The position numbers and the translations under genes are program-made. Below, in pieces: positions 10,619-56,788 of a DNA stretch of 64,000 bases (positions are counted from its first letter, which is position 1; the number at the start of each line of letters is the position of its first letter). The DNA lies in the NCBI GenBank assembly GCA_903842065.1, contig CAIMKZ010000106.1, forward strand, positions 62,001 to 126,000. Reading direction: 5' to 3'. Below the pieces are notes generated by a model. The model worked only from the letters and a program-made list of their open reading frames with translations, was not told the DNA's origin and ran no database searches. This DNA is from an uncultured Acidobacteriaceae bacterium (GTDB lineage Bacteria; Acidobacteriota; Terriglobia; Terriglobales; Acidobacteriaceae).

Positions 10619-14164
<3,546 letters not shown>

Positions 14165-14364
14165 GCCTGGTTAGTTTATCAGCGAGGTAGCTCTCGACGC
14201 TGCAAGCGGATACAGCAAGCGAACGCGCGTGTTGCGCGAAGACCTGTTTCAACACCGTCTTGCACTGTGGTTCGAAACGGTGTTCAGCGCACCGATTCTG
14301 AAACAACTTGTCGCGGTGGGTGCGTCTAAAGATCAAGGTCGGTAGCTTAATAGAGGTCGATAAC

Positions 14365-23540: not shown

Positions 23541-25889
23541 CTACGATGTCTGGCCGCGATGATCTTCCGGCCAGGCGTGTCGTGGATAGCGGCGCATCAG
23601 TTCGCGGCGGACCTGCGGGTAGAGCCGCGCCCAGAATCCGGCAAGATCGGTGGTGGTTTGCACCGGCCGCTGATTCGGCGCGAGCAGTTGCAGCACTACC
23701 GGCGTGCGCTTCGGGCCCAGGCGCGGAGACTCGTCCATACCAAAGAAGTCCTGAAGCCGAGAGGCGATCCACGGAGTCTTGCCGCACTCGTAGTGGATCT
23801 TTACCTGGCGGCCGCCTTTGAGGCGCAGTGTTCGAGGAGCGTTCTCGCTCAACCGGCGCGCATCGAGCCTCTGCTCAAGCCACGCGATGAAACGTTCGCC
23901 TGCACTTTTGAGCTCAGCAAAGCTGCGACAGGTCTGGCAGAACTCTCTGAAGAGCTCTGGGACCGGCGGCGCATCGATGCCGGCGAACTCGACGCGGCCG
24001 AGAAGATCGTCAAGCGCGGCCTCATCTGCAAATCGCCCGATGCCTGCTTCGATAGCTTTGTCGGCTAACATGCGGCCCGCTGCGTCTTTGTCGATCGGCG
24101 CGCCCGTGGATTGCTCGAGAACCAGAGCGCCGTAAAGCAGTTGGCTCACCTCGTCGACGCGCTCGGTCTGCCGATTCCAGGTCAATGACCTCTCTTCGCG
24201 CACCTGTTCCGGAAAGTGATCGAGGAGCCACTCCGGCTCCACGCGAGCGACAAGGCGAACCTGGGGCAGCGGCTTCTCCGTGCGATGTTCCACGTCGAGG
24301 GCCAGCATCAGCGAATACTGGGGCGGCTGGCCCACGATCTCAGCGGCCGTGCTATTGGCCAGCATCACCTGGTTTCCGGTCTTTCGCAGCGCAACACGAT
24401 CCGGAAAGCCCATCAACAGCGCTTGCAACAGCGCGTCGTCGTCGTTCGTGTCGGAGCGCGAGGGCTTGACGATTCCGAGCAGGTGCCGAAGCTGCTGCCG
24501 TGCCGCATCGCCAATCGGCTTGTCGATAGCCTCAAGTACGTCGCTGCGCTCAGTGCGCTCGCCAGCGCTCAACAGCGCCGCTGTAACGCACGCCGCACGG
24601 CCCGCACCGCGCTCCATGGCCTCGCCAATCATGCGCGACAGACGCGGATGAAGGGGAATGCGCATCAGCCCGCGCGCGTCTTCGCCGTGGGCCAGGAGAA
24701 GGTCCAGAAGCCGCTCGACGCTCTCGACTGCCGCATCGGGAGGCGGGTCGAGCCACTCGATCTGTCTGGGATCGTCGATCCCCATGGCACGCAAGGCAAG
24801 GCACAACTGAGCGAGATCGCTGCGTAGAATCTCCGGCGCCTGAAAGTCAGCGCGCCCCTGAAAATCCGCCTGCGAATACAAACGCAACACACGCCCCGGA
24901 CCGGTACGAGCAGCGCGCCCCGCGCGCTGGCGGGCAGAGGCCTTGCTGACGCGGCCGACGTGCAGCGTAGGCAGTCCTGTCCATGAGGAGTACGAAGCCT
25001 CGCGGGCCAGTCCGCTGTCGATGACGGTGCGAACACCTTCAATAGTGATCGAGCTCTCGGCAACATTCGTAGACAGAATGACCCTGGGCTGCACAGACGG
25101 CGACACGGCGCGATCCTGCTCGGATGGGGGTAGATCACCGTGCAAAGGCAGGACGAGCCGGTTGAACTTTCGCGCGATCGGTTCGCAGGCGCGGGCAGCA
25201 CGGCGAATCTCTGCCGCGCCGGGAAGAAAGACAAGAACCTCTCCGGCCTGCTCCTCGCGCAGCACGCGCTCCAATGCATCGCTCACCTGATCGTGCAGCG
25301 GCGCAGGCGAGTAAGGCGTGTACTCAATGGCGAGATCGAAGAGCCTTCCCGCCGAGCTCAGCACCGGACAGCCGCCGAGAAACTGCGCGACGGGAGCGGC
25401 CTCAAGTGTTGCCGACATCACGACAATACGCAGCTCCGGTCGCTTTTGTTGCAGGCGCTTCAGCAGAGCCAGAGCCAGGTCAGTTTCCAGATGCCGTTCG
25501 TGGAACTCGTCCAGAACCACGGCGCCGACACCGCGCAACTCAGGATCGGAGAGCATGCGGCGCGTGAGCACGCCTTCGGTCAAAAAGTGCAGCCGTGTCT
25601 GGGGGCCAGCCACCCGCTCAAATCGCACCTGATAACCGACCGTGCGTCCAACATCTTCGCCGAGTTCCCAGGCCACGCGCCGTGCCGCCAGCCGAGCGGC
25701 GATGCGCCGCGGCTCCAAAACAAGCACGTCGCCAGCCACAATCCGCATCAGCGCCGGAGGAATGCGCGTGGTCTTGCCGGCGCCGGGCTCAGCCTCGATG
25801 AGGAGATTCGGCGTCCGCTCAAGAGCAGCAAGTACGTCCGGAATCAGCGCATCGATCGGGAGAGGCGGCAGGTTGGGCACATCTACCAT
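23541..25889 (-). CDS. hrpB: ATP-dependent helicase HrpB
   Basis: 782 aa from the ATG at 25889 (MVDVPNLPPLPIDALIPDVL). The open frame runs on for 599 codons antisense to the next gene, but only this part is homologous. DExH-box motifs: Walker A EAEPGAGKTT (33-41), DEFH (127-130), SAT, STNVAESSITIEGV, and QRAGRAARTGPG. The C-terminal domain ends in a typical YPQVRRELMRRYPRHAWPEDHR. HrpB is a DEAH-type helicase widespread in bacteria; its RNA substrate is not firmly known. The tRNA-Leu gene lies 130 bp beyond its 3' end on the opposite strand. Confidence 0.95.
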   Translation of the reverse strand: MVDVPNLPPLPIDALIPDVLAALERTPNLLIEAEPGAGKTTRIPPALMRIVAGDVLVLEPRRIAARLAARRVAWELGEDVGRTVGYQVRFERVAGPQTRLHFLTEGVLTRRMLSDPELRGVGAVVLDEFHERHLETDLALALLKRLQQKRPELRIVVMSATLEAAPVAQFLGGCPVLSSAGRLFDLAIEYTPYSPAPLHDQVSDALERVLREEQAGEVLVFLPGAAEIRRAARACEPIARKFNRLVLPLHGDLPPSEQDRAVSPSVQPRVILSTNVAESSITIEGVRTVIDSGLAREASYSSWTGLPTLHVGRVSKASARQRAGRAARTGPGRVLRLYSQADFQGRADFQAPEILRSDLAQLCLALRAMGIDDPRQIEWLDPPPDAAVESVERLLDLLLAHGEDARGLMRIPLHPRLSRMIGEAMERGAGRAACVTAALLSAGERTERSDVLEAIDKPIGDAARQQLRHLLGIVKPSRSDTNDDDALLQALLMGFPDRVALRKTGNQVMLANSTAAEIVGQPPQYSLMLALDVEHRTEKPLPQVRLVARVEPEWLLDHFPEQVREERSLTWNRQTERVDEVSQLLYGALVLEQSTGAPIDKDAAGRMLADKAIEAGIGRFADEAALDDLLGRVEFAGIDAPPVPELFREFCQTCRSFAELKSAGERFIAWLEQRLDARRLSENAPRTLRLKGGRQVKIHYECGKTPWIASRLQDFFGMDESPRLGPKRTPVVLQLLAPNQRPVQTTTDLAGFWARLYPQVRRELMRRYPRHAWPEDHRGQTS

Positions 25890-26030
25890 CCAATAGCATG
25901 ACGCCAGCCGAGTCAATTTTGACCGGCGGATCGGCCCGCCATGTGCGTCTCCCAAGTGCCGCTGTCCGTCTATCTCTTTAGAACCTGCGCTTAGATCGGC
26001 ACCCCAACCCCGTCGCGCAGAGGAGCTCCC

Positions 26031-27674
26031 ATGAAAGCGCTCGCTCTCATCGCCCGCGGCCTGCTCTTTGCCGCCCTTGCCGCCACAGTTATCGCCCAAA
26101 CCAAAACCGCTCCCGTCACCATCGACACCGGCAAGGTCGCCGGCTCGGTCCTCGACAACGGCGTCCACGCCTACATCGGCATCCCCTTCGCAGCGCCGCC
26201 CGTGGGCGATCTGCGCTGGCACGAGCCCATGCCCGCTAAAGCCTGGGCCAGCGTTTACGACGCCGTCACTCCCAAGCCCGGCTGCGCTCAGCGCGCCCCC
26301 GCCAACCGCACCCCGGGCGCATTCTCTGAGCAGTACTCCGAAGACTGCCTCTACCTCAACGTCTGGACCCCTGCCACGGCAAAGGCTGGCGCCAAGCTGC
26401 CCGTCATCGTCTGGATCTACGGCGGCGGATTTACCGGCGGCTCGGCCAATATGCCCGGCTACTCGACCATGCACTTGGCCGCCAAGGGCGTTGTAACCGT
26501 CAACCTCGCCTACCGCGTCGGCGTCTTCGGCTACTTTGCCCATCCGGAGCTGACAAAAGAGACCGGCCACAACGCCTCCGGCGACTGGGGCTCGCTCGAT
26601 CAGGTGGCAGGCCTCAAGTGGGTACAGCGCAACATAGCGGCCTTCGGTGGCGACCCGGCCAACATCACCCTGATCGGCCAGTCGGCCGGCTCTGAGTCCG
26701 TCTATCAGCTCCAGGCCAGCCCGCTGGCCAAGGGCCTGTTCACCAAGATCAGCGCCTGGAGCGGCGCGGATCTCGCCCCCGGCGGCCAGGTGCCTCGCAC
26801 CCTCGCCGAAGGCGAAGCCACCGGCATCAAGGTTCAGCAGATGTTGAATGCCAAAGACCTGGCCGCCATGCGCGCGGTCCCTACGGATCAGGTATTCGCC
26901 GCTCTCACATCGACTCCCGGAGCACAGGCCGGCCCCGGCGGCGGCATCCAGACTCGCCCCTTCGTCGATGGCTGGTTCCTGCCCACCGCGCCCCACGAGA
27001 TCTTCGTCGCCGGCAAGCAGAACGACGTGCCGCTCTACACCTCTTCCACGCAGTCCGATCTGGGCAGCGCCATGCAGATCTACGACGGCGTAAAGACACT
27101 CGCCGATCTGCACAAGCTCGTTCCCACCGTCTTTGGCGACGCCGCCGACGAGTTCTTCAAGCTCTTCCCGGCCGCCAACGACGAGGAAGCACGCAAGGTC
27201 GCGCTCATCGTCTCCGGCGACACCGGCTTTGGCATCAGCAACCGCGACTGGGCCCGCGACCAGGCTCTCTACGGAAAGCAGGTCGTCTATCTGGCCCAGT
27301 GGGCGCACGTGCCACCCGCCAACAAGACCGGCCCTGCCTTCGGCGCATTCGGCGACGGCCCCGCCCACGGCAGCGACATCGCCTACTGGCTCGGCACCTG
27401 GGTAGTGAACACTAACCGGGACTGGAGCGCGTGGGACAAGGAACTCTCTGAGAAGATGCAGGACACGCTCATCACCTTTGCCCGCACCGGCAATCCCACG
27501 ACTGCTGCCGTCAAGGTTCCGCGCTACGATCCGAACGATGAGCACCGCGTGGTCTTTGGCGACACCATCTCGATCGAAAAGATGAACACCGCGCAGGTCG
27601 AGTTCCTGCGCGCGCACGCACCCAAACGCGCCGCCCCCGCAGCGCCTGCGGCTCCGGTTCCTGTCGCGCGGTAG
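26031..27674 (+). CDS. Secreted type-B carboxylesterase
   Basis: 547 aa with a signal peptide (residues 1-22). The nucleophile elbow is GQSAGS (Ser218), the oxyanion hole YGGGFTGGS, and the type-B mark EDCLYLNVWTP; a catalytic His is likely in GPAHGSDIAYWLG. It hydrolyses carboxylic esters in the periplasm or outside. AGAGGAG lies 5-6 nt before the ATG. It begins a plus-strand run with a class-C beta-lactamase-like protein and a second, related esterase (29210). The protein ends in an Ala/Pro-rich tail. Confidence 0.9.
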   Translation: MKALALIARGLLFAALAATVIAQTKTAPVTIDTGKVAGSVLDNGVHAYIGIPFAAPPVGDLRWHEPMPAKAWASVYDAVTPKPGCAQRAPANRTPGAFSEQYSEDCLYLNVWTPATAKAGAKLPVIVWIYGGGFTGGSANMPGYSTMHLAAKGVVTVNLAYRVGVFGYFAHPELTKETGHNASGDWGSLDQVAGLKWVQRNIAAFGGDPANITLIGQSAGSESVYQLQASPLAKGLFTKISAWSGADLAPGGQVPRTLAEGEATGIKVQQMLNAKDLAAMRAVPTDQVFAALTSTPGAQAGPGGGIQTRPFVDGWFLPTAPHEIFVAGKQNDVPLYTSSTQSDLGSAMQIYDGVKTLADLHKLVPTVFGDAADEFFKLFPAANDEEARKVALIVSGDTGFGISNRDWARDQALYGKQVVYLAQWAHVPPANKTGPAFGAFGDGPAHGSDIAYWLGTWVVNTNRDWSAWDKELSEKMQDTLITFARTGNPTTAAVKVPRYDPNDEHRVVFGDTISIEKMNTAQVEFLRAHAPKRAAPAAPAAPVPVAR

Positions 27675-27701
27675 ATCGCGCGGCACATGGAGGCATACAT
27701 C

Positions 27702-27734
27702 GGAAGGCCTGCCGGATCTTCACGCAGGCCTTCC
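27702..27734 (+). terminator. Hairpin after the first esterase
   Basis: GGAAGGCCTGC (27702-27712) pairs perfectly with GCAGGCCTTCC (27724-27734) across an 11-nt loop, 27 bp after the stop. There is no T-run, so termination may be partial. Confidence 0.5.
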
Positions 27735-27810
27735 GCAACCAGTTCTCCGGTCTACTTCCCCTGAGCAGATCCGGCGAATCGAAACACCCTAACCTTCGGA
27801 GGAAACTTCT

Positions 27811-29088
27811 ATGAAGAATGCTTCCAACAAGTTCCTGGCGCTTCTACTGCTGGCTTCGGGCGCGTTCGCACTGAACGCGCAGTCGCTCCCACAAAGCACT
27901 CCTGCCGAGCAGGGCATGTCTGCCAAGCGAATCGCGCAGCTCAAACCGCTTCAGGAAAAGTACGTGAAGGACGGCAAGCTGGCCGGCGGCACCATTCTCA
28001 TCGCCCGCAATGGCAAAATCGTCTACAGCGACACCTTTGGCGCCATGGACCAGGCGTCCGGCAAACCGATGCAGAAGGACGCCATCTTCCGCATCTACTC
28101 GATGACCAAGCCCATCATCACTGTGGCCGCGCTCACCCTCTACGAGCAGGGCAAGTTCTCGATGCTTGACCCGGTGTCAAAGTACATTCCCGAATTCAAA
28201 ACCATGAAGGTGGCCATCGACACTAAAGACGCGAGCGGTAAGCGCATCTACTCCCTGGTCCCGGCCGACCGGCAGATCACGGTGCTCGATCTCTTCCGCC
28301 ACACCAGCGGTATGAACAACGCCGGGCCCAAGGACGAAAGCGGCGAATCGATTTTTACCAAGCTCAATATCAAGAACCACACGCTGGAAGACGGAATCAA
28401 GCTGCTGGCCGGCGCGCCGCTCGTGCATCAGCCCGGTACCGGCTTCGACTACAGCCCCGGCCCCGACGTGATCGGCCGGCTCATCGAAATCTGGTCAGGC
28501 AAGCCGCTCGACGTGTATCTCGACGAGGCCGTCTTCAAGCCGCTGCACATGGTCGACACCGGATTCTGGGTTCCCAAAGACAAGTGGAGCCGGATTGCGA
28601 CCCTCTACGACGCAGGCCCGGACGGCAAGATCGTCAAGGCCACCGACGACGCCCAGGAGGGCTACAAGCAGAAGCCCATCTTCCTCTCCGGAGCCGGCGG
28701 CCTGGCCTCAACCACCATGGACTACGCCCGCTTTGCCCAGATGCTGCTGAATGGCGGCACGCTCGAAGGCGCGCGCATTCTCAGCCCCAAGTCTATTGAA
28801 TTGATGAGCTCCGATCTGCTGGGCGAGCTGCCCATCTACGGCGGTCCGGTGGTGCCGGGCTACGGCTTTGGGCTTACCGTGGCTGTGAATCGCGGACCGG
28901 CCAAAACCGCTTCGGTCGGCTCGGCTGGCGAGTACTACTGGGAAGGCGCGGCCTCGTCGATCTTCTTCGTCGACCCGAAGGAAAAGCTCATCACCGTTTA
29001 CATGATCCAGAAGCGCCGTGGAGTCGAGGTCAGCCGCGAGTACAAGCGCCTGGTCTACGCCGCCATCGACACCACCAACAACAAATAG
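27811..29088 (+). CDS. Secreted class-C beta-lactamase-fold serine hydrolase
   Basis: 425 aa with a signal peptide (ending LNAQS). The SxxK motif is SMTK (97-100) and the YxN-like triad residue is in FDYSPGPD (Y214); an HTSGM box follows the family pattern. The third KTG-type box is replaced by GSAGEYYWEG, as in many esterase- or peptidase-like members (EstB/PBP4*-type). Hence ester or peptide hydrolysis is more likely than antibiotic resistance. GGAGG lies 8 nt before the ATG. It sits between two related carboxylesterases. Confidence 0.88.
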   Translation: MKNASNKFLALLLLASGAFALNAQSLPQSTPAEQGMSAKRIAQLKPLQEKYVKDGKLAGGTILIARNGKIVYSDTFGAMDQASGKPMQKDAIFRIYSMTKPIITVAALTLYEQGKFSMLDPVSKYIPEFKTMKVAIDTKDASGKRIYSLVPADRQITVLDLFRHTSGMNNAGPKDESGESIFTKLNIKNHTLEDGIKLLAGAPLVHQPGTGFDYSPGPDVIGRLIEIWSGKPLDVYLDEAVFKPLHMVDTGFWVPKDKWSRIATLYDAGPDGKIVKATDDAQEGYKQKPIFLSGAGGLASTTMDYARFAQMLLNGGTLEGARILSPKSIELMSSDLLGELPIYGGPVVPGYGFGLTVAVNRGPAKTASVGSAGEYYWEGAASSIFFVDPKEKLITVYMIQKRRGVEVSREYKRLVYAAIDTTNNK

Positions 29089-35252: not shown

Positions 35253-37241
35253 ATGCCCTTCTCTGAACCTTCATCCCGCGCACTGCCCAGCCTCCACGAG
35301 TTCTTCTCGCCCGGCGGCATCCTGGCCCGTTCTCCGCTCCCCTACGAGTACCGGCCCGGACAGCTTGAGATGGCCAAGGCCGTCGAGAAGGCGTTCACCG
35401 AGCGCAGGCACCTCATAGTCGAAGCCGGCACCGGAACCGGGAAGACCCTGGCCTATCTGCTGCCCGCGCTGCGTACTGGCCAGCGCGTCATCGTCTCCAC
35501 CGGCACCAAGGCTCTACAGGATCAGCTCTTCTTCCGCGACATTCCCTTCCTCGAAACTCTGCTCGGCGATCTGCGTGTCTGCTATATGAAGGGCCGCGCC
35601 AACTACCTCTGCCGCCACAAGCTGGTGACGCTGCGCGACCAGCCGATTCTTTCGGGTTTGGAAGAGATCGACGAGTATAAGCAGATCGCCGAGTGGGAGA
35701 AGCAGACCGAGACCGGCGACCGCGCCGAGCTGGGCGACCTGCCCGAGACCAGCTCGCTGTGGCAAAAGCTCGACGCGCGGTCCGACGCCTGCATCGGCTC
35801 CCAGTGCCCGGATTATCAACGGTGTTTCATCACCGAGATGCGCCGCCGCGCCGCCGAGAGCGACGTCATCATCGTCAACCACCATCTGTTCTTTGCCGAT
35901 GCGGCCGTGCGCCAGATGGCCGCCGCCGCGCCCGACGCAGGAATCCTGCCCGAGGCCGCCGCGGTCATCTTCGACGAGGCCCACGAGCTTGAAGAGGTAG
36001 CCTCAAGCTACTTCGGCCTCTCGGTCTCAAACCTGCGCTTCGAGGAGCTGGCCCGCGACACCGAGACTTTGCTGCGCGCCCAGCAGAGCGCCGTCAACAT
36101 TGTGCCGCTCACCCAGCAGTTGCGCGACCGCGCCCGGCTGCTCTGGTCCGCGCTACCCGTGGGCGACGGCCGCCAGCCCTTCCAGGACCGCGAGGGTTTT
36201 TTAGAAGTTTCGGGAGATTTATATCTCGGCGTGAAGACCACGCTGCGCCAGCTCGAAGCCGAGCTGGACCGGCTTACAGGAGTGGATGAGGCGCCGGCCC
36301 TCAAGGGGCGCGCCGCGCGGCTGCGCACCGAGCTTGAGTTCGTGCTCGAATCGAACGCCAGCAACATGGTCTACTGGCTCGAGCGCCGCGGCGACGGCCC
36401 CACTGCCTCCAGCCGAAGGGCAGCCGCACGCAGCGCCAGAATCACCTACCTTCAGGCCACGCCCATCGACGTCTCCGAGCTGCTTCACGAGCGGGTATTC
36501 GAGCAGATTCCCACGGTTGTGCTCACCTCGGCCACGCTCACCGTGCAGGGCGGCTTCGAACACATTCGCCGCCGGCTTGGCCTCGGGGAAGCTCGCGAGC
36601 TCGTCGTTCCCAGCCACTTCCGCTACGGCGAGCAGGCCCTCTTATACCTGCCCCCCGACATGCCCGACCCGCGCTCGGCAGACTTCCCCGAGGCCGCCGC
36701 CCGCTCCATCCGCCGCGTGCTCGAACTGTCGCGGGGCCGCGCCTTCTGCCTCTTCACCAGCTACGCTCAGATGCGCACCCTCTACGAGCTTCTGCTGCCG
36801 GTCCTCGACTTCCCCCTTCTGCTCCACGGCACCGCTCCGCGCAAGGCGCTGCTCGAAGAGTTCCGCAATACTCCCAACGCCGTTCTCTTCGGCACCTCAA
36901 GCTTCTGGCAGGGCGTCGATGTGCAGGGCGAGGCGCTGAGCTGCGTCATCATCGACCGCCTGCCCTTTGCCGTGCCCACCGACCCCATCGTTCAGGCCCG
37001 TATGAAATCGATAGAGGAAGCCGGCGGCAAACCCTTCTTCGACTACCAGGTCCCCGAAGCCGTTCTGACGCTCAAGCAGGGCTTCGGCCGGCTGATCCGC
37101 TCGCTGGAAGATCGCGGCGTTCTGGTCCTCCTCGACCCACGCATCCGGACCCAGCGATACGGACGCACCTTCATCCAGAGTCTGCCGCCATATCGGGTGA
37201 CGCAGACGATTACGGATGTGGAGGCGTTCTTTGGGCGATGA
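35253..37241 (+). CDS. dinG: DinG-family ATP-dependent DNA helicase (XPD-like)
   Basis: 662 aa. Walker A AGTGTGKT (58-65), DEAH box FDEAHELEEVA, and the C-terminal helicase motif LKQGFGRLIRSLEDRG. Four cysteines (one in GRANYLCRHK, three in DACIGSQCPDYQRCF) fit the 4Fe-4S site of XPD/DinG helicases. It unwinds DNA 5'-3' at forks, R-loops or damage. TAGAAT ~30 bp upstream may be its -10. The last ~30 codons recur at 42750-42833, downstream of the regulator/receptor module; see findings. Confidence 0.92.
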   Translation: MPFSEPSSRALPSLHEFFSPGGILARSPLPYEYRPGQLEMAKAVEKAFTERRHLIVEAGTGTGKTLAYLLPALRTGQRVIVSTGTKALQDQLFFRDIPFLETLLGDLRVCYMKGRANYLCRHKLVTLRDQPILSGLEEIDEYKQIAEWEKQTETGDRAELGDLPETSSLWQKLDARSDACIGSQCPDYQRCFITEMRRRAAESDVIIVNHHLFFADAAVRQMAAAAPDAGILPEAAAVIFDEAHELEEVASSYFGLSVSNLRFEELARDTETLLRAQQSAVNIVPLTQQLRDRARLLWSALPVGDGRQPFQDREGFLEVSGDLYLGVKTTLRQLEAELDRLTGVDEAPALKGRAARLRTELEFVLESNASNMVYWLERRGDGPTASSRRAAARSARITYLQATPIDVSELLHERVFEQIPTVVLTSATLTVQGGFEHIRRRLGLGEARELVVPSHFRYGEQALLYLPPDMPDPRSADFPEAAARSIRRVLELSRGRAFCLFTSYAQMRTLYELLLPVLDFPLLLHGTAPRKALLEEFRNTPNAVLFGTSSFWQGVDVQGEALSCVIIDRLPFAVPTDPIVQARMKSIEEAGGKPFFDYQVPEAVLTLKQGFGRLIRSLEDRGVLVLLDPRIRTQRYGRTFIQSLPPYRVTQTITDVEAFFGR

Positions 37242-37302
37242 TTTGGGTGGAGTGAATTGTTCCAGACTGAACTTCAGCAGTTCCAGATGATTTGAGTCGC
37301 GG

Positions 37303-38592
37303 CTACCAGAAGTACGTTGCGAGTATCTTCACGTGGCCGGCATTTTCGGGAGCAGATTCGGTACGCAGCACAGCTTCGAAGTTGATCCCTTTCCACCCTT
37401 TCGGGGCCAGGGTAGCGACTTGCTGAAACCCCTCTTCGGTAGTAATGAACTCTCCTGCGCCCTCTGTGCCCTCGGGACGGAGACCGCCGATGATGAGGAC
37501 CGGACTCGCGCTTAGATTGCTGTAAAACCTGGCGACAATCGCATAGTCACTTGGATCATGGGACGGAGGATCGTGTGCGACTCTCCAGGTGGAAATCGAC
37601 TGCGGGTTCCATTGATCCACAATCACTCGCTCCTGATGGGGCAGGGTGTCGACCCATGGAGTCGTGCGGAACTGGTAACGGAGAGGCTCAAGAAACTGAT
37701 CGGTCAAGGGGTTGTTGGGGCCCCCGATCAGCACTAGAGCCTTGTTACGAAGCTCCGCCATGGTCATTGTTGACGCCGAGAGGATATTACAGTCGCCTTT
37801 CTTGAATATAAAGAAGGCGGTACAGATTCTCGATACCCAGGCCGGATCGTTGAGCTTCCAATCGGAGGTGTCCTGCGAAGGGGATCCCGATGCGCCCGGC
37901 GGCTGGCTGCTGTTGGTCTCCGGAAGCTGGCGGGGGGGAATCGTAGTAAGAAACGTGTTGCCAGCAATAATAATCGCCGGTTGGTTGTTATGCAGTACCG
38001 GCTCCCAGAGAGCATGCTCGCCCGCTTCATTCTGGGCGTAGCGCCATATTCCCGCGCTCGTCCCTACAAGGATCAGAAGCGCGGTCAAGGCGGCCCTCCA
38101 CCAGGGATTCCAAAGCCAGACCCACGCCTTTCGTAACCTGGAAGCACGCGGCCGGTAGGCGACAGTCGACGTCGTCTCAAAGTAAAGGTCGCTGGGCTGG
38201 AAAGGAGGGGGCGTTGCTCCCGGTGCAATGAAGTAAAACTCAGCGATGTAGCTGCCTGGCCGCAGATCGATGCGAACCGGCTCTTCCGGATAGTCACTGA
38301 AGTACATGTGCATCCGCTTGCGCACTTCGACGGCGGCGTTGCGAACGATCGAATCGTTTCCGGCATCCCAATCCGGCTCGCGGCCGAAGATCTCGGCGCC
38401 CAGGATGCGCTCTTTCAGTACTTCGAAGTTGCCGGTAAGCGAATTGCGAACGATGAATTCCAGAAACGCCGGATAGCGTTTGCTCTTTCGGAACTGATCG
38501 CTCTCAATGATAGAACGCACTGTTGCTTCGACCGCCTCCAAATGCAGGGCGGTCAGATCGGGATAACGGATGATCTTTTGATCTGGAAGCAC
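37303..38592 (-). CDS. Regulator A: membrane-anchored winged-helix-like protein with periplasmic domain
   Basis: 429 aa. Residues ~33-120 form a cytoplasmic domain with FRKSKRYPAFLEFIVRN, VLKERILGAEIFGREPDWD, DSIVRNAAVEVRKRM and VRIDLRPGSYIAEF. The last two blocks resemble the recognition helix and wing of OmpR-type winged helices (LRKKL, then GxGY). One membrane helix follows (~165-184), then a ~240-residue periplasmic domain ending ILATYFW. A paralogue lies at 56789. Divergent to receptor A, so a role as one-component sensor-regulator of that receptor is inferred; no family name known to me. The start is a GTG; TATACT (minus, 38602-38607) ends 9 nt before it. Confidence 0.7.
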   Translation of the reverse strand: MLPDQKIIRYPDLTALHLEAVEATVRSIIESDQFRKSKRYPAFLEFIVRNSLTGNFEVLKERILGAEIFGREPDWDAGNDSIVRNAAVEVRKRMHMYFSDYPEEPVRIDLRPGSYIAEFYFIAPGATPPPFQPSDLYFETTSTVAYRPRASRLRKAWVWLWNPWWRAALTALLILVGTSAGIWRYAQNEAGEHALWEPVLHNNQPAIIIAGNTFLTTIPPRQLPETNSSQPPGASGSPSQDTSDWKLNDPAWVSRICTAFFIFKKGDCNILSASTMTMAELRNKALVLIGGPNNPLTDQFLEPLRYQFRTTPWVDTLPHQERVIVDQWNPQSISTWRVAHDPPSHDPSDYAIVARFYSNLSASPVLIIGGLRPEGTEGAGEFITTEEGFQQVATLAPKGWKGINFEAVLRTESAPENAGHVKILATYFW

Positions 38593-38736
38593 AGTAGCAA
38601 AAGTATATCGGGAACAACCGTTTGAAACATGAATGGAACCTTAAGCCCAGTGCCTGCCCGCATTTTCGAGGAAGATTCCCGAAGAAGGAAACTGCGGCGG
38701 ATTGCGGTCGCGGTTGCGAAAATGGCAGGGGAGTAC

Positions 38737-38751
38737 TTAGCTTAAAGCTAA
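38737..38751. promoter_or_regulatory. 15-bp palindrome, possible operator
   Basis: TTAGCTT-A-AAGCTAA is a perfect inverted repeat around a single base, in the AT-rich part of the divergent region. Confidence 0.5.
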
Positions 38752-38788
38752 TTAGTTGAATAATTTAGAGGTGCGATGCTGTACCAGT

Positions 38789-38817
38789 CTCCAGTTAAAG
38801 ACGGTCTTTAACTGGAG
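38789..38817. promoter_or_regulatory. 29-bp perfect palindrome, operator or RNA hairpin
   Basis: CTCCAGTTAAAGAC (38789-38802) and GTCTTTAACTGGAG (38804-38817) are exact inverted repeats around one G. It lies 135 bp before receptor A. As DNA it could be a dimer-binding operator; as RNA a stem with forced tight loop. Confidence 0.6.
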
Positions 38818-38951
38818 AAATTGTGCATACAGGCTTAGATTGGCTGCCAGTTTGGCAATTCAGTCTGGCGCGACGCGTACGCTCCCGGTTCTTGGAGAGG
38901 AGTGATGTGCGTTGCCGCGCCCGGCATGGATGAGGCCTTTGGGAGGACAGC

Positions 38952-41900
38952 ATGGCAAGCAGAATTACTACCCGCAGTATTGCGGGTTTTCTATCCACAC
39001 TGGCGCTGGTTAGCCTTATGGCGATCCTGTCGTCTTCGCGGTCCGAGGCGCAGAGCTTTGGATCTATCGTAGGCACTGTGACCGACGCTTCCGGCGCCGT
39101 GGTGCCGGGTGCAACCATTACGGTGACCAACACCGGGACCAACGAGACACGAACCGTCAAGTCGAGTGCTGCCGGCGACTACCAGGTCGTCAATCTACAG
39201 CCCGCAGTATATAAAGTGCAAGTGCAGGCAACCAACTTCAAGCGCTTTGTGAGCGATCGCGTGGAGGTGCAGGTCGGAAGCGCCTTCCGCGTGAACGTCG
39301 CGCTCCAGGTGGGTTCCGCCACAGAGACGGTTGAAGTCAACACTCAGGCGCCGTTGCTGCAAACGGAGTCGGGAACCCTGGGCTCGCAGGTAGAAGGCAA
39401 GACAGTTCAGGCGATGCCGCTCAACGGCCGCAACACCATGGCTCTGATCGCGCTGGTTCCCGGCGTGGTGCCGCAGGGGTCCACCTCTGGCGGCGTGGGA
39501 TTGAATCAGGGCGACCACACCAACAACAGCGGCTGGGGCAACTACCAGATTGGGGGCTCCATCGCCGGCCACGGCGTGGTGTTTGTAGATGGCGCGCCGA
39601 ACAACTCGCTGGGCGGCAACACCGTCGGCTTTGTTCCCGTGCAGGACGCGGTCCAGGAGTTCAAGGTGTCCACCTCCGCGATCAGCCCCGAGTTCGGTCG
39701 CTTTGGCGGCGGGGTAGTGGAGATGAGCACCAAGAGCGGCAGCAATGCCTGGCACGGCACCGCCTACGAGTTCTTCAGAAACACGGTTCTTGACACCAAT
39801 ACCTACGGCTGGAACGCCTCCAACGCCGCATCCGGCTCCAAGACGCGCCAGAAGCTGAACCAGAACCAATATGGCGGGCTGGTCAGCGGTCCGGCGATCA
39901 AGAACAAAGCCTTCTTCATGTTCAACTATGAGGGATTCAAGGTCCGGTCTGGCCTGAGCGATGCGTTCAACATTCCCGATGCGGGCATGATGAGCGACAC
40001 CGACCCCAGCGTTCCATGGGATCTGACCGCAGCCTCAAGCGATCCAAACAAGACGATCTCCAACTGGACGAAGGGAAGCTGCATTACCGGTTACACCAAC
40101 GGAAGAACGCACTTCAAGCCCTCCTGCATCGATCCGGACTCCAAGCTATTCAAGGAGTTCTACCCGGACGTAAACCAGGCGAAGTCGGCCACCAACCCCA
40201 TCCAGTTCTACAACGGGAACCCCATCACCGGCCAGGCGCCCAACTACAACGTGGCCTACGTTGTCGGCGTCGATACGAGCCAGTACAACGCGCGCGGCGA
40301 TGTGAACCTGGGCGCCAAGCAGCACATCTTCGGCCGCTATTCCCACATGAGTTCGAAGGATATTCCGGCGGATGAAGTGCTCAGCGCCCACGGCTACAAG
40401 ACCGCCAACGCCGGCAGCAACTACTTCACGCATCAGGGCGTGCTTGGCGACACCGTGACCATCAACCCCACCACCATCGCCGACTTCCGCCTCTCCTTCC
40501 TGAGGAACTACAACGACAATATGCAGCAGAGCGCTGGCGATCCCGCCACCAAGACGTTTATCAGCTCGCTGGGCGCCGGCTGGGCGCCGGTAAGCGCGGC
40601 AGCCAGCCAGGTCCATCTACCCAAGCCTCAGATCGGTCCGTTTGGGCCGGGCGGCAGAGACGGACTGTACACCTTCCGTGCCATGGGCGGCTGGAGCTGG
40701 GGCTGGAGCGATTCGACGTCCTTCAGCGCCAACATCACCAAGATCCGGGGAAGCCACACCATCAAGTTCGGCGGCGAGATCCGGTTCATGGACCAGACCA
40801 GCGGTGGAGTGTGGACGCCCGACGGCGGACTCAACTTCGGCTCCGACTACACCACGGACGAATGGGCCAACTTCCTGCTGGGCCTGCCCGACTCGGTCAA
40901 CATCAGCACCTCGGCCAGCTCGGGCGCGTTCAACTGGTATCAGGGCTACTACGGATCCGATACCTGGACCGTAAACCGCAAACTGACTCTGAGCGCCGGC
41001 GTTCGCTGGGAGCTGCCCGGAGCCGTCGCGGAGCGGAAGAACAACTCCACCGTGCTCCTTCCCGATTACATCTCTTCGTCGGGCATAAGAGGCACACTGG
41101 CGCTTACCAACTCCAACCTGTGGAAAGATAGAACCACCGAACCGGCTCTTCATGCTCTGCTCTCGCCCCGCGTTGGCTTTGCCTATCGCGTGAAGAGCGA
41201 TCTGGTTGTGCGCGGCGGTTATTCGCTCACCTACCTGGCTCCGGATCTGGGCACGGTGCTTCCCGGCAACAGTATTGTCAACTCGGCGAATACCAGCGCC
41301 AATAACCCCCAGCAGAGCCAGAATCCCGTTCTCAATCCGAGCGCCGTCTACTATACGACCTCGAATCCGTTTGGATCGGGCGCAAACGCGCAGCAGATCT
41401 TCCAGCCGGTCGGGCGCAAGTATGTCAATAATTTCGCTGGCTGGTTCCAGTCAGGACATGTAACCGGACAGGCGGATGACGGCTACTCCGGCCAAGACAT
41501 CTCCGGACCGGTTCCGACCAACACAATGTCCTACATGGAGCAGTGGAACCTCGCCGTGGGCCGTCAGTTCAAGGGCCAGCAATCCGTCGAGGTCGGCTAT
41601 GCCGGCGCGCTCGCCATTCACCTGCTTCCGGCCGGCGGCAGCTGGGGTATCGATCAGCCCACATGGGCGCAAATCGCGGTCATCAAGAACTGCCCGAACG
41701 ACGATTGCGTCTATCAGAACATGCCGTATCCCAACTACCACAGCGTTTCCAACTCCAACGCCTACAACGGGACCATCAACTACAACTCGTTGCAGATTCG
41801 CTATGAGAAGCGCTTTGCCGCCGGCGCAGCCATTACCAGCGGCTATACCTTCTCCAAGTCGCTCGGCGACTCCGACACCACCATGTCCTGGCTCGACAGC

Positions 41901-42578
41901 GGCGCCGACGGCATGCCTCAGGACTACAACAACATCAAGGGCGAACATTCGATTCTGAGCTACAGCATCAAGAACCGCTGGGTTTCCAGCTTCGTGCTCG
42001 ATCTGCCCGTGGGCAAGGGAAAGAAGTACTTTAACAACGAGAACGGCATCGTCGATCGAGTCATCGGCGGCTGGGGAATCAACGGCATCACAACACTCCA
42101 GTCGGGGCAGCACCTGCTGCTGACCGATGGCAATGGCGACGCCCTGGCAGGCTCCCACGGCCACGGCCTCAACGCCGGCCAGCTCCGCCCCGACTATATC
42201 GCCGACTGCGATAAGCTGAAGGGGATCGGCGGAAGCCAGCAGAAGCGTATGAACGGGTGGTTCAATACAGCCTGCTTCCTGGCCCCCGATGCGAATCCCT
42301 CCAACCCCCATCCCGGCCCTTATGCCCTCGGCAACGAGCCCCGTGTCGATTCCAACCTGGTAGGCTCGGGAATCGCCAACTGGGATTTCACCGCTCAGAA
42401 GACAACCAGAATCACGGAAAAGACCAACCTCGAATTCCGCATGGAGTTCTATAACCTCTTCAACCGCCGCCAGTGGAACCTTCCGAATGGCGACGTTTCC
42501 AGCCCCGGTTTTGGCACCATCAACGACCAGCAGAACAATCCTCGCCAGATGCAGGCCAGCCTGCGGTTCAACTTCTAA
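38952..42578 (+). CDS. Receptor A: TonB-dependent receptor with N-terminal Cna-B-like domain
   Basis: 1208 aa with a signal peptide (to about SEAQS). Residues ~35-120 form a carboxypeptidase-regulatory/Cna-B-like domain (GSIVGTVTDASGAVVPGATI). The TonB plug follows (QVEGKTVQAMPLNGRNTMAL, VQDAVQEFKVSTSAISPEFG), then a long barrel ending in SLRFNF with terminal Phe for BAM recognition. This is the acidobacterial SusC-like/OAR-type receptor class, thought to import oligosaccharides or other large substrates. There is no SusD partner. GGGAGG lies upstream of the ATG. Divergent to regulator A and followed by a dinG fragment. Confidence 0.92.
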   Translation: MASRITTRSIAGFLSTLALVSLMAILSSSRSEAQSFGSIVGTVTDASGAVVPGATITVTNTGTNETRTVKSSAAGDYQVVNLQPAVYKVQVQATNFKRFVSDRVEVQVGSAFRVNVALQVGSATETVEVNTQAPLLQTESGTLGSQVEGKTVQAMPLNGRNTMALIALVPGVVPQGSTSGGVGLNQGDHTNNSGWGNYQIGGSIAGHGVVFVDGAPNNSLGGNTVGFVPVQDAVQEFKVSTSAISPEFGRFGGGVVEMSTKSGSNAWHGTAYEFFRNTVLDTNTYGWNASNAASGSKTRQKLNQNQYGGLVSGPAIKNKAFFMFNYEGFKVRSGLSDAFNIPDAGMMSDTDPSVPWDLTAASSDPNKTISNWTKGSCITGYTNGRTHFKPSCIDPDSKLFKEFYPDVNQAKSATNPIQFYNGNPITGQAPNYNVAYVVGVDTSQYNARGDVNLGAKQHIFGRYSHMSSKDIPADEVLSAHGYKTANAGSNYFTHQGVLGDTVTINPTTIADFRLSFLRNYNDNMQQSAGDPATKTFISSLGAGWAPVSAAASQVHLPKPQIGPFGPGGRDGLYTFRAMGGWSWGWSDSTSFSANITKIRGSHTIKFGGEIRFMDQTSGGVWTPDGGLNFGSDYTTDEWANFLLGLPDSVNISTSASSGAFNWYQGYYGSDTWTVNRKLTLSAGVRWELPGAVAERKNNSTVLLPDYISSSGIRGTLALTNSNLWKDRTTEPALHALLSPRVGFAYRVKSDLVVRGGYSLTYLAPDLGTVLPGNSIVNSANTSANNPQQSQNPVLNPSAVYYTTSNPFGSGANAQQIFQPVGRKYVNNFAGWFQSGHVTGQADDGYSGQDISGPVPTNTMSYMEQWNLAVGRQFKGQQSVEVGYAGALAIHLLPAGGSWGIDQPTWAQIAVIKNCPNDDCVYQNMPYPNYHSVSNSNAYNGTINYNSLQIRYEKRFAAGAAITSGYTFSKSLGDSDTTMSWLDSGADGMPQDYNNIKGEHSILSYSIKNRWVSSFVLDLPVGKGKKYFNNENGIVDRVIGGWGINGITTLQSGQHLLLTDGNGDALAGSHGHGLNAGQLRPDYIADCDKLKGIGGSQQKRMNGWFNTACFLAPDANPSNPHPGPYALGNEPRVDSNLVGSGIANWDFTAQKTTRITEKTNLEFRMEFYNLFNRRQWNLPNGDVSSPGFGTINDQQNNPRQMQASLRFNF

Positions 42579-42730
42579 CCTCTCAACCTGAAGGCAAGGC
42601 GAAAATGAGCCTTGCCCTGCTTCAGCGGGACGCCTCCGGGCGTCCCGCTTCTTTGTGGCGCATTCGCGTTTCAAGCACAGCCCGCGGAAGCCCCGCCTGC
42701 GGCCGGTGGCCGGCCTAACTTCGCTTGGGC

Positions 42731-42833
42731 CCGCATAACGAATCGGCGCTACGGACGCACCTTCATCCAGAGTCTGCCGCCATATCGCGTGACGCAAACC
42801 ATCACGGACGTAGAAGCCTTTTTCGCGGGCTAA
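42731..42833 (+). pseudogene. dinG 3'-end fragment
   Basis: The frame reads ARITNRRYGRTFIQSLPPYR and continues with VTQTITDVEAFFAG before a TAA. The 26 residues from RYGRTF to EAFF are identical to the end of DinG at 37241. A 38-bp core is identical in DNA (42750-42787 and 37158-37195); beyond it all nine codon differences, plus one just before the core and one at its edge, are synonymous. Nothing upstream of 42731 matches dinG. It is not a gene by itself but the mark of a recombination event; the rest of 42579-42975 holds no gene. Confidence 0.85.
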
Positions 42834-42975: not shown

Positions 42976-43953
42976 ATGAGTTTTCTCGGCTCAATCAAAA
43001 AGGCGGCACGAAAAAACAACGCGGTAAGGCGGCTGATCTCCATCCGCGATCTGCGCAGATTCCGCGCCGTGAACTCGCCGCGACGGCTGATCTTTGAGCC
43101 TATCTCCGCCTGCAATTACAGGTGTCCCAAGTGCATTTACCCGGAGATGGAGCGCGCCAAGCGGCCCGTGGATCTTGAGAAGTTCCGTCTCTTTCTGACG
43201 AACTGGAACTCCACATATGGCCCGTTTGAAAGCGTGGAGTTTACCGGCGCCGGAGAGGTTCTCTCTTTCAGCGGGTTTGTGGAGATGGTTGCGATCGGCG
43301 CCCAGGTCATGCCCTCCATGCGAATGGTCACGACTTCCAACATGGGCCTTTTCGATGTCGATACGGCGAGAAAACTGGTTCAAAACGGACTGCGCTCCTG
43401 GCAGGTTTCGCTGGACTCCGTCGATCCGGCCGAGTACGCACTGATGGTCGGCGTCAAGTCGGCCAGCGTCGAGAAGATTCTGAAAGACATTGCCGCCCTG
43501 TGGCAGATCCTTCAGGAGAATCCCTCGCCGCTCAACCGCCTGGCCATTCTGGCGCATCGTCCGCTGGATGCCGATTACGACCGCAAGTGCGACGAAATCG
43601 AAAGTGCCGTCAAGGGTATCTGCTCGGAGTTTTCCCGTTCGCCCTATCAGAGCCTCAACGGAAGAAAGCTTGAGGAGCAGTTCGTCTTGTCTGAAAAGCT
43701 CCTTTATCGCTCCGACCGTTATCCCATGCCCTGTGCCTATCTTTGGACCGACCTTGTCGTCCTCAACGACGGCACGGTGCGTATCTGCTGCAGCGACATG
43801 TTCGACTCGCCGGTGAACTTCGGCAACGTCTTTACCGACACGCCGCAGCAGATTGTTGCCAACCTCACCAGGCGCGAATATCAGGCCGCTCATGAGACCA
43901 ACCGGATCGGCTCGCTCTATCTTTGCGATAAGTGTCACGCCCCGCACTCCTGA
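42976..43953 (+). CDS. Radical SAM protein with SPASM-like C-terminus
   Basis: 325 aa. The CX3CX2C cluster site is CNYRCPKC (C46, C50, C53), with EFTGAGEV as the SAM-binding GGE-like motif and SLDSVDP in strand 4-5. The C-terminal part has CAYLWTDLVVLNDGTVRICCSDMF and LCDKCH, cysteines spaced as in SPASM/twitch domains that hold an extra Fe-S cluster. Such proteins modify peptides, sulfatases or cofactors. No precursor peptide gene is recognisable nearby, so the substrate is unknown. GGAGAAGAG lies before the ATG. It begins right after the dinG fragment. Confidence 0.88.
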   Translation: MSFLGSIKKAARKNNAVRRLISIRDLRRFRAVNSPRRLIFEPISACNYRCPKCIYPEMERAKRPVDLEKFRLFLTNWNSTYGPFESVEFTGAGEVLSFSGFVEMVAIGAQVMPSMRMVTTSNMGLFDVDTARKLVQNGLRSWQVSLDSVDPAEYALMVGVKSASVEKILKDIAALWQILQENPSPLNRLAILAHRPLDADYDRKCDEIESAVKGICSEFSRSPYQSLNGRKLEEQFVLSEKLLYRSDRYPMPCAYLWTDLVVLNDGTVRICCSDMFDSPVNFGNVFTDTPQQIVANLTRREYQAAHETNRIGSLYLCDKCHAPHS

Positions 43954-44191
43954 TGGCTGAAGCCGGGGAAGATGGTGTTCGACTTGTATGACCCGCCGGG
44001 GACGGCCTGCGCGTTGCGCTCCTGTGACTCCGGGCCGGTAAGTTGAACCCATTCAGCCGGATCGAGGGCGGCTCATACTCATTTCCATTCGCCTGTGTGT
44101 TTCGCCAGGCGTCTGAAAGTTCTTGCCCGCCGGCTTCCCGGCGACGGCTTCGCCGCCGATTCTATTTACCGGTCGGGCAAACTCCTCTAAA

Positions 44192-44992
44192 ATGTCCTCA
44201 GTGCCTGTAACCAAGCCTTTGCCTAATTCTGCTTCGTCTCGCGCCCGGCGTTCCGCCGGTCCCGCGCCTGCCGCCGACCGCGCGTCCGCCGTACTGCGCC
44301 TCTACAACTCCCCCGAGGCACGGCGCGTCAAAGAAGAGATCTGCCACGCGGGCCGCAAGCTGTGGCTGCGCGCCTTTGTCGATGGCAACGGCGGCAACAT
44401 CTCTCACCGCATCGGGCCCAATGCCGTCCTCTGCACACCAACGCTGGTGAGCAAGTACGACCTTACGCCTGCCGACATCTGCATGGTCGATCTCGACGGC
44501 AACCAGCTGGCCGGCACCCGGCCCGCAACCAGCGAGATGCTGCTGCATCTGGAAATTTACAAAGACGTGCCGCAGGCCAAAGCCGCAGTCCACTGCCATC
44601 CGCCTTACACCACGGCGCACGCCATCACCGGCGTTGAACCCGATGGCCTGTTGCTGCCCGAGTACGAGATGCTCATCGGCCGCGTGGCCATGGCCCCTTA
44701 CGAGTCACCCGGCACGCTTGAGTTCGCGCGCACCATCAAGCCCTACGCCGCACAGCACAACGCCATCATCCTCGGCAACCACGGCGTCATCTGCTGGGGC
44801 GAGACGGTCACCTGGGCCGAGTGGCAGGTTGAGGTGCTTGAGAGCTACCTCCAGGTTCTGGCTATCGCCAAAGCCTCAGGCCGTCCGCTGCGGCACATTC
44901 CGGCCGCAAAGGCCGGCGACCTTCGCGCCCGCCGTCTGGCCATGGGATTCCCTGACAACGGCTCCTCAAAAGCGCGCAACCGCAAGGCCTGA
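44192..44992 (+). CDS. Class II aldolase/adducin-family protein
   Basis: 266 aa from the ATG at 44192. The zinc site is made of HCHPPYTTAHA and the His of LGNHGVICWG, and the catalytic-type Glu is in RPATSEMLLHLEIY, as in L-fuculose-1-phosphate aldolase. NGGNISHRIG is the typical phosphate-binding start. It likely cleaves or decarboxylates a sugar phosphate; the exact substrate cannot be told. An earlier in-frame start at 44123 adds low-complexity sequence and is not preferred. It is followed by pncA after 37 bp. Confidence 0.88.
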   Translation: MSSVPVTKPLPNSASSRARRSAGPAPAADRASAVLRLYNSPEARRVKEEICHAGRKLWLRAFVDGNGGNISHRIGPNAVLCTPTLVSKYDLTPADICMVDLDGNQLAGTRPATSEMLLHLEIYKDVPQAKAAVHCHPPYTTAHAITGVEPDGLLLPEYEMLIGRVAMAPYESPGTLEFARTIKPYAAQHNAIILGNHGVICWGETVTWAEWQVEVLESYLQVLAIAKASGRPLRHIPAAKAGDLRARRLAMGFPDNGSSKARNRKA

Positions 44993-45683: not shown

Positions 45684-45735
45684 TTGCACAGCGAGGGAGC
45701 CTCCGCTATCCTGAAGCAGCACCTAATTCGGTGCT
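45684..45735 (+). promoter_or_regulatory. Promoter and operator of the Phd/ParE-type TA pair
   Basis: TTGCAC (45684-45689) and TATCCT (45707-45712) are 17 bp apart. Directly downstream is the inverted repeat AGCACC-TAATTC-GGTGCT (45718-45735), which ends 13 bp before the antitoxin ATG. This is where Phd/YefM antitoxins usually bind for autoregulation. Confidence 0.6.
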
Positions 45736-45748
45736 TACTGAGGCCGCG

Positions 45749-46036
45749 ATGAACATCACCACCGACATTCAATCCATGACCGCCTTCCGCCGCAACCCCG
45801 CCGGCTTTGTGAAGCAGCTCAAGAAGAGCAAGCGTCCCATAGTGCTTACGGTCAACGGCCGGGCCGCAGCTGTCATTCAGGATTCTGAGAGCTATCAGCA
45901 TCTCCTCGACACAGCCGCTCGCGCCGATGCGCAGGAAGGCATTCGCCAGGGAATCGAAGACGCCACAAAGGCACGCCTTCGCCCTGCGCGTCAGTTCTTC
46001 ACAGAGTTTGAAGCTGCCCATGGCATTCAGCGTTAA
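45749..46036 (+). CDS. Phd/YefM-family antitoxin
   Basis: 95 aa from the ATG at 45749 (GAGG 5 nt upstream). The DNA-binding half has TDIQSMTAFRRNPAGFVKQLKKSKRPIVLTVNGRAAAVIQDSESYQ, the typical Phd/YefM fold with the VLTxNGxxxAV strand. The C-terminal half (EGIRQGIEDATKARLRP) is the toxin-binding helix. It overlaps the toxin gene by 17 nt, giving tight co-translation. Confidence 0.9.
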   Translation: MNITTDIQSMTAFRRNPAGFVKQLKKSKRPIVLTVNGRAAAVIQDSESYQHLLDTAARADAQEGIRQGIEDATKARLRPARQFFTEFEAAHGIQR

Positions 46037-46334
46037 CATCACGAGCCGCGCCGAGCGCGATCTCACCGCTCTCTACGCTGAGATCGATGCCGTCGAATCC
46101 CTGGCCGCCAGAAAGTGGTATGTCGGCCTCAGGCAAGCCATCCTGAGCCTCGAAGAACTCCCGGAGAGAGCGCCTGTCATTCGAAGTCCCGGCGGAATCC
46201 GGCAGTTGCTTCACAGGAAAAAGCCTCATGTCTACCTGATCCTCTTCCGGATTCGTATGAGGCCGCGGCAGGTAGACGTGCTGCACATCCGCCACGGCGC
46301 GCGGCTGCCATTTTTGAGATCCGACGTGGAATAG
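46020..46334 (+). CDS. RelE/ParE-family toxin
   Basis: 104 aa from the ATG at 46020, beginning MAFSVNITSRAERDLTALYAEID, the usual ParE/RelE opening. It continues with a two-helix hairpin (SLAARKWYVGLRQAILSLEELPERAPVI) and a beta-sheet ending VDVLHIRHGAR, characteristic of ParE/RelE-superfamily toxins. It is either a gyrase poison (ParE) or an mRNA interferase (RelE); the IRHGAR C-terminus fits the superfamily but does not decide. It overlaps its antitoxin by 17 nt. Confidence 0.9.
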   Translation: MAFSVNITSRAERDLTALYAEIDAVESLAARKWYVGLRQAILSLEELPERAPVIRSPGGIRQLLHRKKPHVYLILFRIRMRPRQVDVLHIRHGARLPFLRSDVE

Positions 46335-56335: not shown

Positions 56336-56788
56336 TGCTTGCCTCCCATGGTTGAACTGCTGATACTTCGAATCGAGAGCGCCTGGCGAAACCATTCCGA
56401 ATCGATAAATGCCGGCTTGAATGGATCTGCGCCACATATGTTTTTCGCCGCTTCGCGCTCCCACGCATTCGCTAACCCCAAACAGATGCACGCTCCGCCT
56501 CTGCCCGTGGCTTTTAGCCGGCTTCGGTGGGTTTGCGGTCTGCGTCCGCTCAGGGCTCTCCCGTGAATAGTGCGACAAACCTATCCCTTCTATGCCGAAA
56601 GGTCACGTCCCGTACCGTATCGTCAATTCATCTTGTGGCAGCGCAAAGACTTACGCGCCCATTTTGAGCTCGCCAGAACTGTCGTATCGTACGGCCATTC
56701 CGGACACAGACTCTCCGTTTGTCCAGCCCACTTCAGGGTTATACTTGTATCCAAATCAGAACAACGACTATTGCAGGCGTGATACAAG
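56336..56788. promoter_or_regulatory. Divergent region between receptor B and regulator B
   Basis: 453 bp without a gene. TTGTCC (56719-56724) and TATACT (56740-56745), spaced 15 bp, may form the regulator promoter, giving a leader of about 37 nt. CCGTAC and GTACGG half-sites occur near 56613 and 56693. No palindrome comparable to the 29-bp one in locus A is seen. Confidence 0.4.

Follow-up and report, generated by a model that had tools for sequence, protein, structure and literature searches.

How does a gene come to be followed, kilobases downstream, by a second copy of its own end? The question is raised by a window of 64,000 nucleotides (i.e., the whole stretch of DNA analyzed here, positions 62,001 to 126,000 of contig CAIMKZ010000106.1 from an uncultured soil Acidobacteriaceae bacterium), in which an intact helicase gene of the DinG family (35253-37241, plus strand) is accompanied, 5.5 kb downstream, by a fragment (42732-42833) that is an in-frame copy of its last 33 or so codons. 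An original prediction, made by reading the sequence, took this to be the arrangement left by an element that had entered at the 3' end of the gene, and stated that the interval holds only a regulator and a receptor, with no integrase; as to the content of the interval, we find the same. Our answer is that this is a gene-end insertion without a visible integrase, and that the scar is real and recurrent.

The gene itself contains the Pfam domain Helicase_C_2. The original prediction called it dinG, which is correct as to the family, but NCBIfam places it as YoaA, with a score of 745.5 bits (cut-off 680), while the cut-offs for DinG are missed. We refer to it below as yoaA or simply as the helicase gene.

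An identical core between diverged flanks

The repeat is centered on a core of 38 bp that is identical in the two copies, at 37158-37195 in the gene and at 42750-42787 in the fragment (both on the plus strand), exactly as predicted. Past the core, 10 of 13 codons differ between the tail of the gene (37196-37241, plus strand) and that of the fragment (42788-42833, plus strand); all of these differences are synonymous, as had been noticed, although they had been counted as nine. The final two codons and the stop also differ, the gene ending in GR-stop and the fragment in AG-stop. Upstream of the core, the fragment has an arm (42732-42749, plus strand, encoding RITNRR) with weak homology to the helicase gene, 11 of the 18 bases being the same in the gene of this genome and 13 of 18 in the best relative. 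From 42730 onward, the fragment aligns to locus L041 with 78% identity over 95 bp.

The likeness of the fragment to the end of a helicase gene is no chance match. A DNA profile of the gene end, run against 68 downstream stretches, detected the fragment with an E value of 3.5e-16, with unrelated forward hits beginning at E 0.51; on reversed sequence, the best hit of the same profile had an E value of 1.1.

Over its whole length, the fragment finds its best match in the gene of its own genome (87% over 78 bp), a relationship that the original prediction had named as speaking against recent integration. This best match is due to the 38-bp block, and the relationship does not hold outside it. There, the tail of the fragment shares 33 of 39 positions with L041, and 32 of 39 with each of L059, L051, L025, and L007, but 29 of 39 with the gene of its own genome. 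The tail of that gene is in turn closest to L048 (36 of 39). The co-occurrence of such tails with such a core is unusual: in 3,252 pairs of compared genes with no more than 5 of 13 tail codons in common, the longest identical run in the preceding 57 nucleotides was 30 nucleotides, and no pair reached 38.

Because tails so different stand beside a block so alike, recombination at that place is the most likely explanation. Comparison of the sequences thus makes recombination at the core likely and simple duplication not likely; the latter had already been doubted in the original prediction, and the tail of the fragment is indeed closer to other species than to the adjacent gene. The same comparison suggests that the two gene ends differ in ancestry, a point that is firmer than the question of which of them is native. 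The gene and the fragment also have in common the R and the I of the motif GRTFIQ, residues that occur together in no relative among those listed.

Which end is native

With moderate confidence, and on the evidence of codon style and of the closest relative, L033, we take the native end to be the one now in the fragment, and the intact gene to have received that of the newcomer. The present 3' end of the helicase gene would then probably be foreign, and the displaced end at 42788-42833 probably native. In third-base codon style, the tail of the gene departs from its own body by a z score of -5.27, compared with -0.54 for the tail of the fragment; 0 of 54,783 windows in the bodies of 90 genes reached 5.27. 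L033, which is the closest relative by protein identity (85%), shares one of 10 comparable codons with the tail of the gene and seven of 10 with that of the fragment, and none of 568 body windows in that comparison was as low as the tail of the gene. Across 89 genes, similarity in the body was negatively correlated with similarity to the gene's tail (rho -0.29, p 0.006), and positively with similarity to the fragment's tail (rho 0.23, p 0.03). These comparisons of 90 and 89 genes omit the loci of this genome (L001 and L002), identical duplicates, and genes cut or unreadable at the end.

Several observations weigh against this assignment, which depends on 13 codons. The relatives are split: of all 89 genes, 48 are nearer to the tail of the gene, 30 to that of the fragment, and 11 are ties, while the corresponding figures are 4, 3, and 3 for the ten closest by codon identity of the body, and 5, 3, and 2 for the ten closest by protein identity. 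L024, whose body is equal to that of L033 in codon identity, shares four of seven codons with each tail. L068, also close by its body, shares nine of nine codons with the tail of the gene, and shows the same codon switch (z -4.8) with no remnant. The N and R at the fourth and fifth residues of the fragment's upstream arm are found at that place in 0 of 89 relatives. Immediately 5' of the core, the gene has the codon CGA, found in 0 of 30 C-rich relatives, whereas the CGC of the fragment is found in 20 of 30; the unusual CGA implies that the crossover would lie upstream of the core. In G063, one of the other genomes with a remnant (see below), the polarity looks reversed or unclear. Finally, tail switches beyond |z| 3 occur in 5 of 90 helicase genes, not clearly more often than at other gene ends (3 of 131). 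The proposal that the gene was rebuilt with the end of a newcomer stands as regards recombination and two ancestries; its polarity can be given moderate confidence only, the relatives being split.

The last of these frequencies (5 of 90 versus 3 of 131) also led us to reject, as unconvincing, the idea that recurrent tail replacement can be read from codon style alone. At L068, L006, L053, and L034, the helicase gene is intact and its codon style shifts abruptly over the last 13 codons (|z| >3); it is possible that these shifts are footprints of past exchanges of the gene end.

Tail remnants recur with different cargo

The region downstream of the helicase gene was compared across 68 loci from 67 genomes, a total of 719,658 bases, using the DNA profile of the gene end with filters off. 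The stretches covered at least 1 kb in 65 of the 68 loci, at least 6 kb in 41, and at least 12 kb in 31; because of these limited lengths, the counts of remnants are lower bounds. Tail remnants lying 3' of an intact helicase gene, on the same strand, were found at four of the 68 loci, i.e., in this genome (5.5 kb from the gene, with the E value given above), G063 (11.3 kb, E 2.9e-52), G095 (0.74 kb, E 5.1e-7, with indels), and G026 (0.63 kb, E 0.0034). In an ungapped scan, the G026 remnant scored 13.6, with -21.9 at the next place and -9.1 for the best of five shuffles.

The cargo was different in each case. The 11.3 kb in G063 contain nine open reading frames, none of which we recognized as an integrase on reading them. 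G095 has a toxin of the Gp49 family with a helix-turn-helix partner; in G026, a ParE toxin is paired with a ribbon-helix-helix protein, the latter falling just below the Pfam cut-off. The toxin pair of G026 also occurs in G102, a near relative (91% over 559 bp), where no remnant was found.

For comparison, the ends of three neighboring genes were searched for remnants, with none convincing for pncA (0 of 30), QueD (0 of 29), or waaA (0 of 24), making 0 of 83 together. Two strong second hits in these controls fall at control genes that are themselves truncated or in pieces. The weaker hits, including one to waaA in G021 (E 0.0036) and others from E 0.038 to 0.49, were mostly on the minus strand; we tentatively take the minus-strand hits to waaA to be a related gene. 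The scar thus recurs in the genus with different cargo, the fourth remnant (G026) being weak. Against the recurrence, it should be noted that the E value in G026 is no better than that of the minus-strand waaA hit, that recognition of the G026 remnant depends on the ungapped scan, and that four of 68 against 0 of 83 is a modest contrast.

A family-wide search of 398 genomes, drawn with the genus included, revealed no further bracket at an E value of 0.01. At that threshold the search also failed to report the decayed remnants of G095 and G026, so that rarity outside the genus is not established. Other second matches to the helicase end were rejected on inspection: in G278 and G446 they break at contig positions 5 and 2 and continue on another contig, in G372 the match is one gene in two pieces, in G205 it is a distant helicase, and in G044 the helicase piece stops at the contig end. 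At the locus of the weak G026 remnant, broken pncA-like pieces lie 3' of the helicase gene (L039:5828-6029). G032 has a helicase-gene 3' end at a place apart from the gene, next to a DNA methylase gene of the N6_N4_Mtase family (L143:13612-13790, contig C25). Over 162 bp, this piece and the end of the helicase gene of G032 are 91% identical, which implies that such gene ends also reach other places in the genome.

Genes for mobility and DNA uptake

No tyrosine recombinase (PF00589) was found between the gene and the remnant in any of the four genomes, a search that did not extend to serine recombinases, nor was any found elsewhere on the remnant contigs of G063, G026, and G095. On the contig of this genome, the closest match to PF00589 is some 270 kb distant. 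The remnant contigs of G026 and G095 are 7.6 and 7.0 kb long, respectively, and that of G063 ends about 190 bases past the remnant; any recombinase genes lying further out would escape notice. Genes of the ComEC family are present in all four remnant genomes, and permit rather than demonstrate the uptake of DNA. A search of plasmids gave four distant hits, in Pseudoalteromonas (42%), and a search of phages gave zero. In a viral collection, contigs of up to 157 kb carry four helicase genes of the DinG family (L235-L238), with 32-34% identity over nearly the whole length.

How the cargo may have entered

The account that we prefer, giving it just under an even chance, is a single homologous crossover in the 38-bp block by a circular or repeat-flanked DNA, at an integrase-poor hotspot. 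The incoming DNA would have carried the regulator and the receptor together with a yoaA 3' end encoding the same amino acids by other synonymous codons, and would have recombined with the resident yoaA inside the identical block that the two shared. The resident gene would have kept its body and gained the last codons of the newcomer, its own last codons being moved to the far side of the cargo, where they would form the fragment. One crossover by a circular (or repeat-flanked) molecule would leave a direct repeat on either side of the cargo without loss of a gene end, as is seen here, and this points to the homologous recombination of the host rather than to an integrase of the element. The circularity of the molecule, the dependence of the exchange on RecA, the donor, and the identity of the native end are all matters that we infer. 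It tells against this account that our comparisons turned up neither a genome of the same species nor an exact empty site.

A crossover of this kind is not the sole way to place a foreign gene end beside a resident one. In homology-facilitated illegitimate recombination, a linear donor would have paired with the resident through its yoaA 3' end on the left, and the right-hand joint would have been made inside the resident tail by chance or by a microhomology of 3-10 bp. The homologous anchor that this calls for at one end is present, i.e., the 38-bp block, and the gene's own codon just before the core fits a donor tract starting upstream of it. The ComEC-family genes of the four remnant genomes are also in keeping with it, as are the 64 of 68 loci that have no remnant in the fetched stretch, since random right-hand joints would allow this. 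Insertions of this type have been proposed for effector modules of Vibrio cholerae (PMC5361080). However, such a joint usually deletes resident DNA (PMC3240628), whereas here the resident gene end is retained, and an identical block between flanks that are diverged on both sides would be left unexplained. We regard this route as doubtful, if still the main rival. An element that targeted the yoaA 3' end by means of an integrase, since lost, would be expected to leave the same scar, with the gene end duplicated across the cargo as a direct repeat, and in three of the four remnants the upstream edge falls within a narrow range of the profile (positions 143, 149, and 153). The edge in G063, however, is at position 49, the cargoes differ, two of them being just a toxin-antitoxin pair, and the intervals lack PF00589, that in this genome consisting of the regulator and the receptor only. 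An integrase-borne element is therefore distinctly improbable.

Local duplication of the gene end, interrupted later by the cargo and followed by divergence, would account for the whole-length match between the fragment and its own gene, and for the R and I of GRTFIQ that no listed relative combines. It would require that 10 of 13 codons changed synonymously, with no change of amino acid, right beside 38 bases that stayed identical; it also fits poorly with the odd codon style of the gene's tail and with a fragment tail that is nearer to L041 than to that gene outside the core. We consider it very unlikely. An error of assembly or binning that joined two strains would be conceivable in a draft genome of 106 contigs, but the module is inside a contig of 425 kb, the repeat is merely 38 bp, and a like arrangement is seen in other assemblies, so that this explanation is scarcely credible. 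Returning to the crossover by homologous recombination, which the original prediction had named as its alternative, it fits the evidence better, and this agent is more likely than an integrating element. The interpretation first offered is partly supported, being right in outline.

A more general proposal, which we think unlikely, is that mobile cassettes without integrases use the yoaA 3' end as a common site of entry in this genus. If it were true, homologous recombination between the two tails could release the cargo that they bracket as a circle with one tail. In any genome of the group, this circle could insert at the same gene, which would each time acquire a new end while its previous one stayed on as a remnant. 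One route would then serve receptor modules, toxin-antitoxin pairs, and larger gene sets alike.

A variable spot downstream of the helicase gene

In this window, the helicase gene, regulator, receptor, and fragment are followed by a radical SAM/SPASM gene (42976-43953, plus strand; PF04055, PF13186) and a class II aldolase gene (44123-44992, plus strand; PF00596), the latter lying 3' of the helicase gene in several relatives, and then by genes labeled pncA, QueD, and waaA. These last labels, and that of Der upstream, come from reading the translations only. The genus commonly has the order helicase gene, variable stretch, pncA, QueD, waaA. The distance from the helicase gene to the next conserved gene ranges from 3 bp to more than 15 kb: in the 36 loci where a conserved neighbor was reached, it was <60 bp in four, 60-1000 bp in eight, 1-4 kb in 17, and >4 kb in seven, and in 12 further loci there was no conserved neighbor in more than 10 kb.

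Within the stretches compared, the module is not shared by the relatives. In searches of the fetched stretches by tblastn at E 1e-10, the regulator was found at this place in 0 of 67 other loci, and a receptor-like gene in G009 only, with 23-33% identity. The radical SAM gene was likewise found in 0 of 67 other downstream stretches at the same threshold. The predicted empty site, with the helicase gene directly followed by the radical SAM gene, was thus not seen; none of the four loci (of 68) with the next conserved gene at <60 bp has a radical SAM flank. A distant receptor-like gene also lies 3' of the helicase gene in L072 and in L108, two of the named loci.

Of the open reading frames in this hotspot, 120 (117 of 153, and a further three picked by hand) were compared with Pfam. 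They matched 88 families, the most frequent of which had three members, and no integrase or transposase was among the 25 of these 88 families that were listed. A PhdYefM antitoxin and a ParE toxin are encoded between the pncA- and QueD-labeled genes of the window (45731-46334), and in G095 a similar antitoxin/toxin pair is present just 5' of pncA. G023 contains two diverged helicase genes (contigs C332 and C242), the second cut by the contig start, representing a mixed bin or a true second copy.

The regulator and receptor

The putative regulator (37303-38592, minus strand) matched no family in Pfam or NCBIfam, and a search with its structure gave no solved structures at E <=0.001. In an AlphaFold model (mean pLDDT 80.9, pTM 0.56), a helical N-terminal part with a small pair of strands is seen together with another domain and a long helix (residues 163-192), which may be membrane-spanning. 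The receptor (38952-42578, plus strand) is of the TonB type, with a carboxypeptidase-regulatory domain (PF13620) and an outer-membrane barrel (PF25183). The two genes are divergent, and between them is a perfect palindrome of 31 bp (38788-38818), with arms of 15 bp and a spacer of 1 bp, which is a possible operator; three like regions in the window contained no palindrome with arms >8 bp. The arrangement of the genes suggests that the receptor is controlled by the regulator.

Neither protein was of use as a guide to the donor. The family of the regulator is too large (84 of 149 genomes), its best other match (35%) being in the same genome, and the best other match of the receptor, with two candidates scored per genome, is a 51% paralogue in the same genome, compared with 44% elsewhere. 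A second divergent receptor/regulator pair is present at 52652-58093 of the window, with a receptor about 40% and a regulator 32% identical to those of the module. Large divergent pairs of open reading frames at 10619-15591 and 23541-29088 have a similar look, although their second proteins are only 17-20% identical to the regulator.

Discussion

Phage 21/e14 target icd. SGI1 targets the 3' end of trmE. These elements that integrate at gene 3' ends resemble the present case in that the target remains whole, a second gene end lies beyond the cargo, and the two form a direct repeat; the present case differs in that no integrase was found, the cargo is small, and several unrelated cargoes occur at one site. 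The type VI effector modules of Vibrio cholerae, as presented in PMC5361080, likewise involve no integrase, an upstream homologous anchor, and displaced 3' remnants, whereas the gene targeted in the present case is a repair gene and remains whole, with no deletion evident. Many hotspots of transfer are without integrases, and the core genes that flank integrase-poor hotspots recombine more and tend to be repair genes, as stated in PMC5635113. Variable content beside a conserved repair gene is a feature in common with the present locus, but the model in PMC5635113 is double recombination at both flanking genes, while here the end of one gene is duplicated. In a literature search, no report of dinG or yoaA as an insertion site was recognized by title or abstract among the papers listed (15 of 61, and 10 of 1,275); one of these papers, PMC4723332, mentions yoaA twice.

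How cargo enters hotspots is mostly deduced from the statistics of populations. In the present case, individual events leave scars that can be read, i.e., a second gene end, an identical block the size of a crossover, and a switch of codons, and as many as four such cases, differing in age, within a single genus make the route testable. It would show one route by which receptor genes spread in Acidobacteria.

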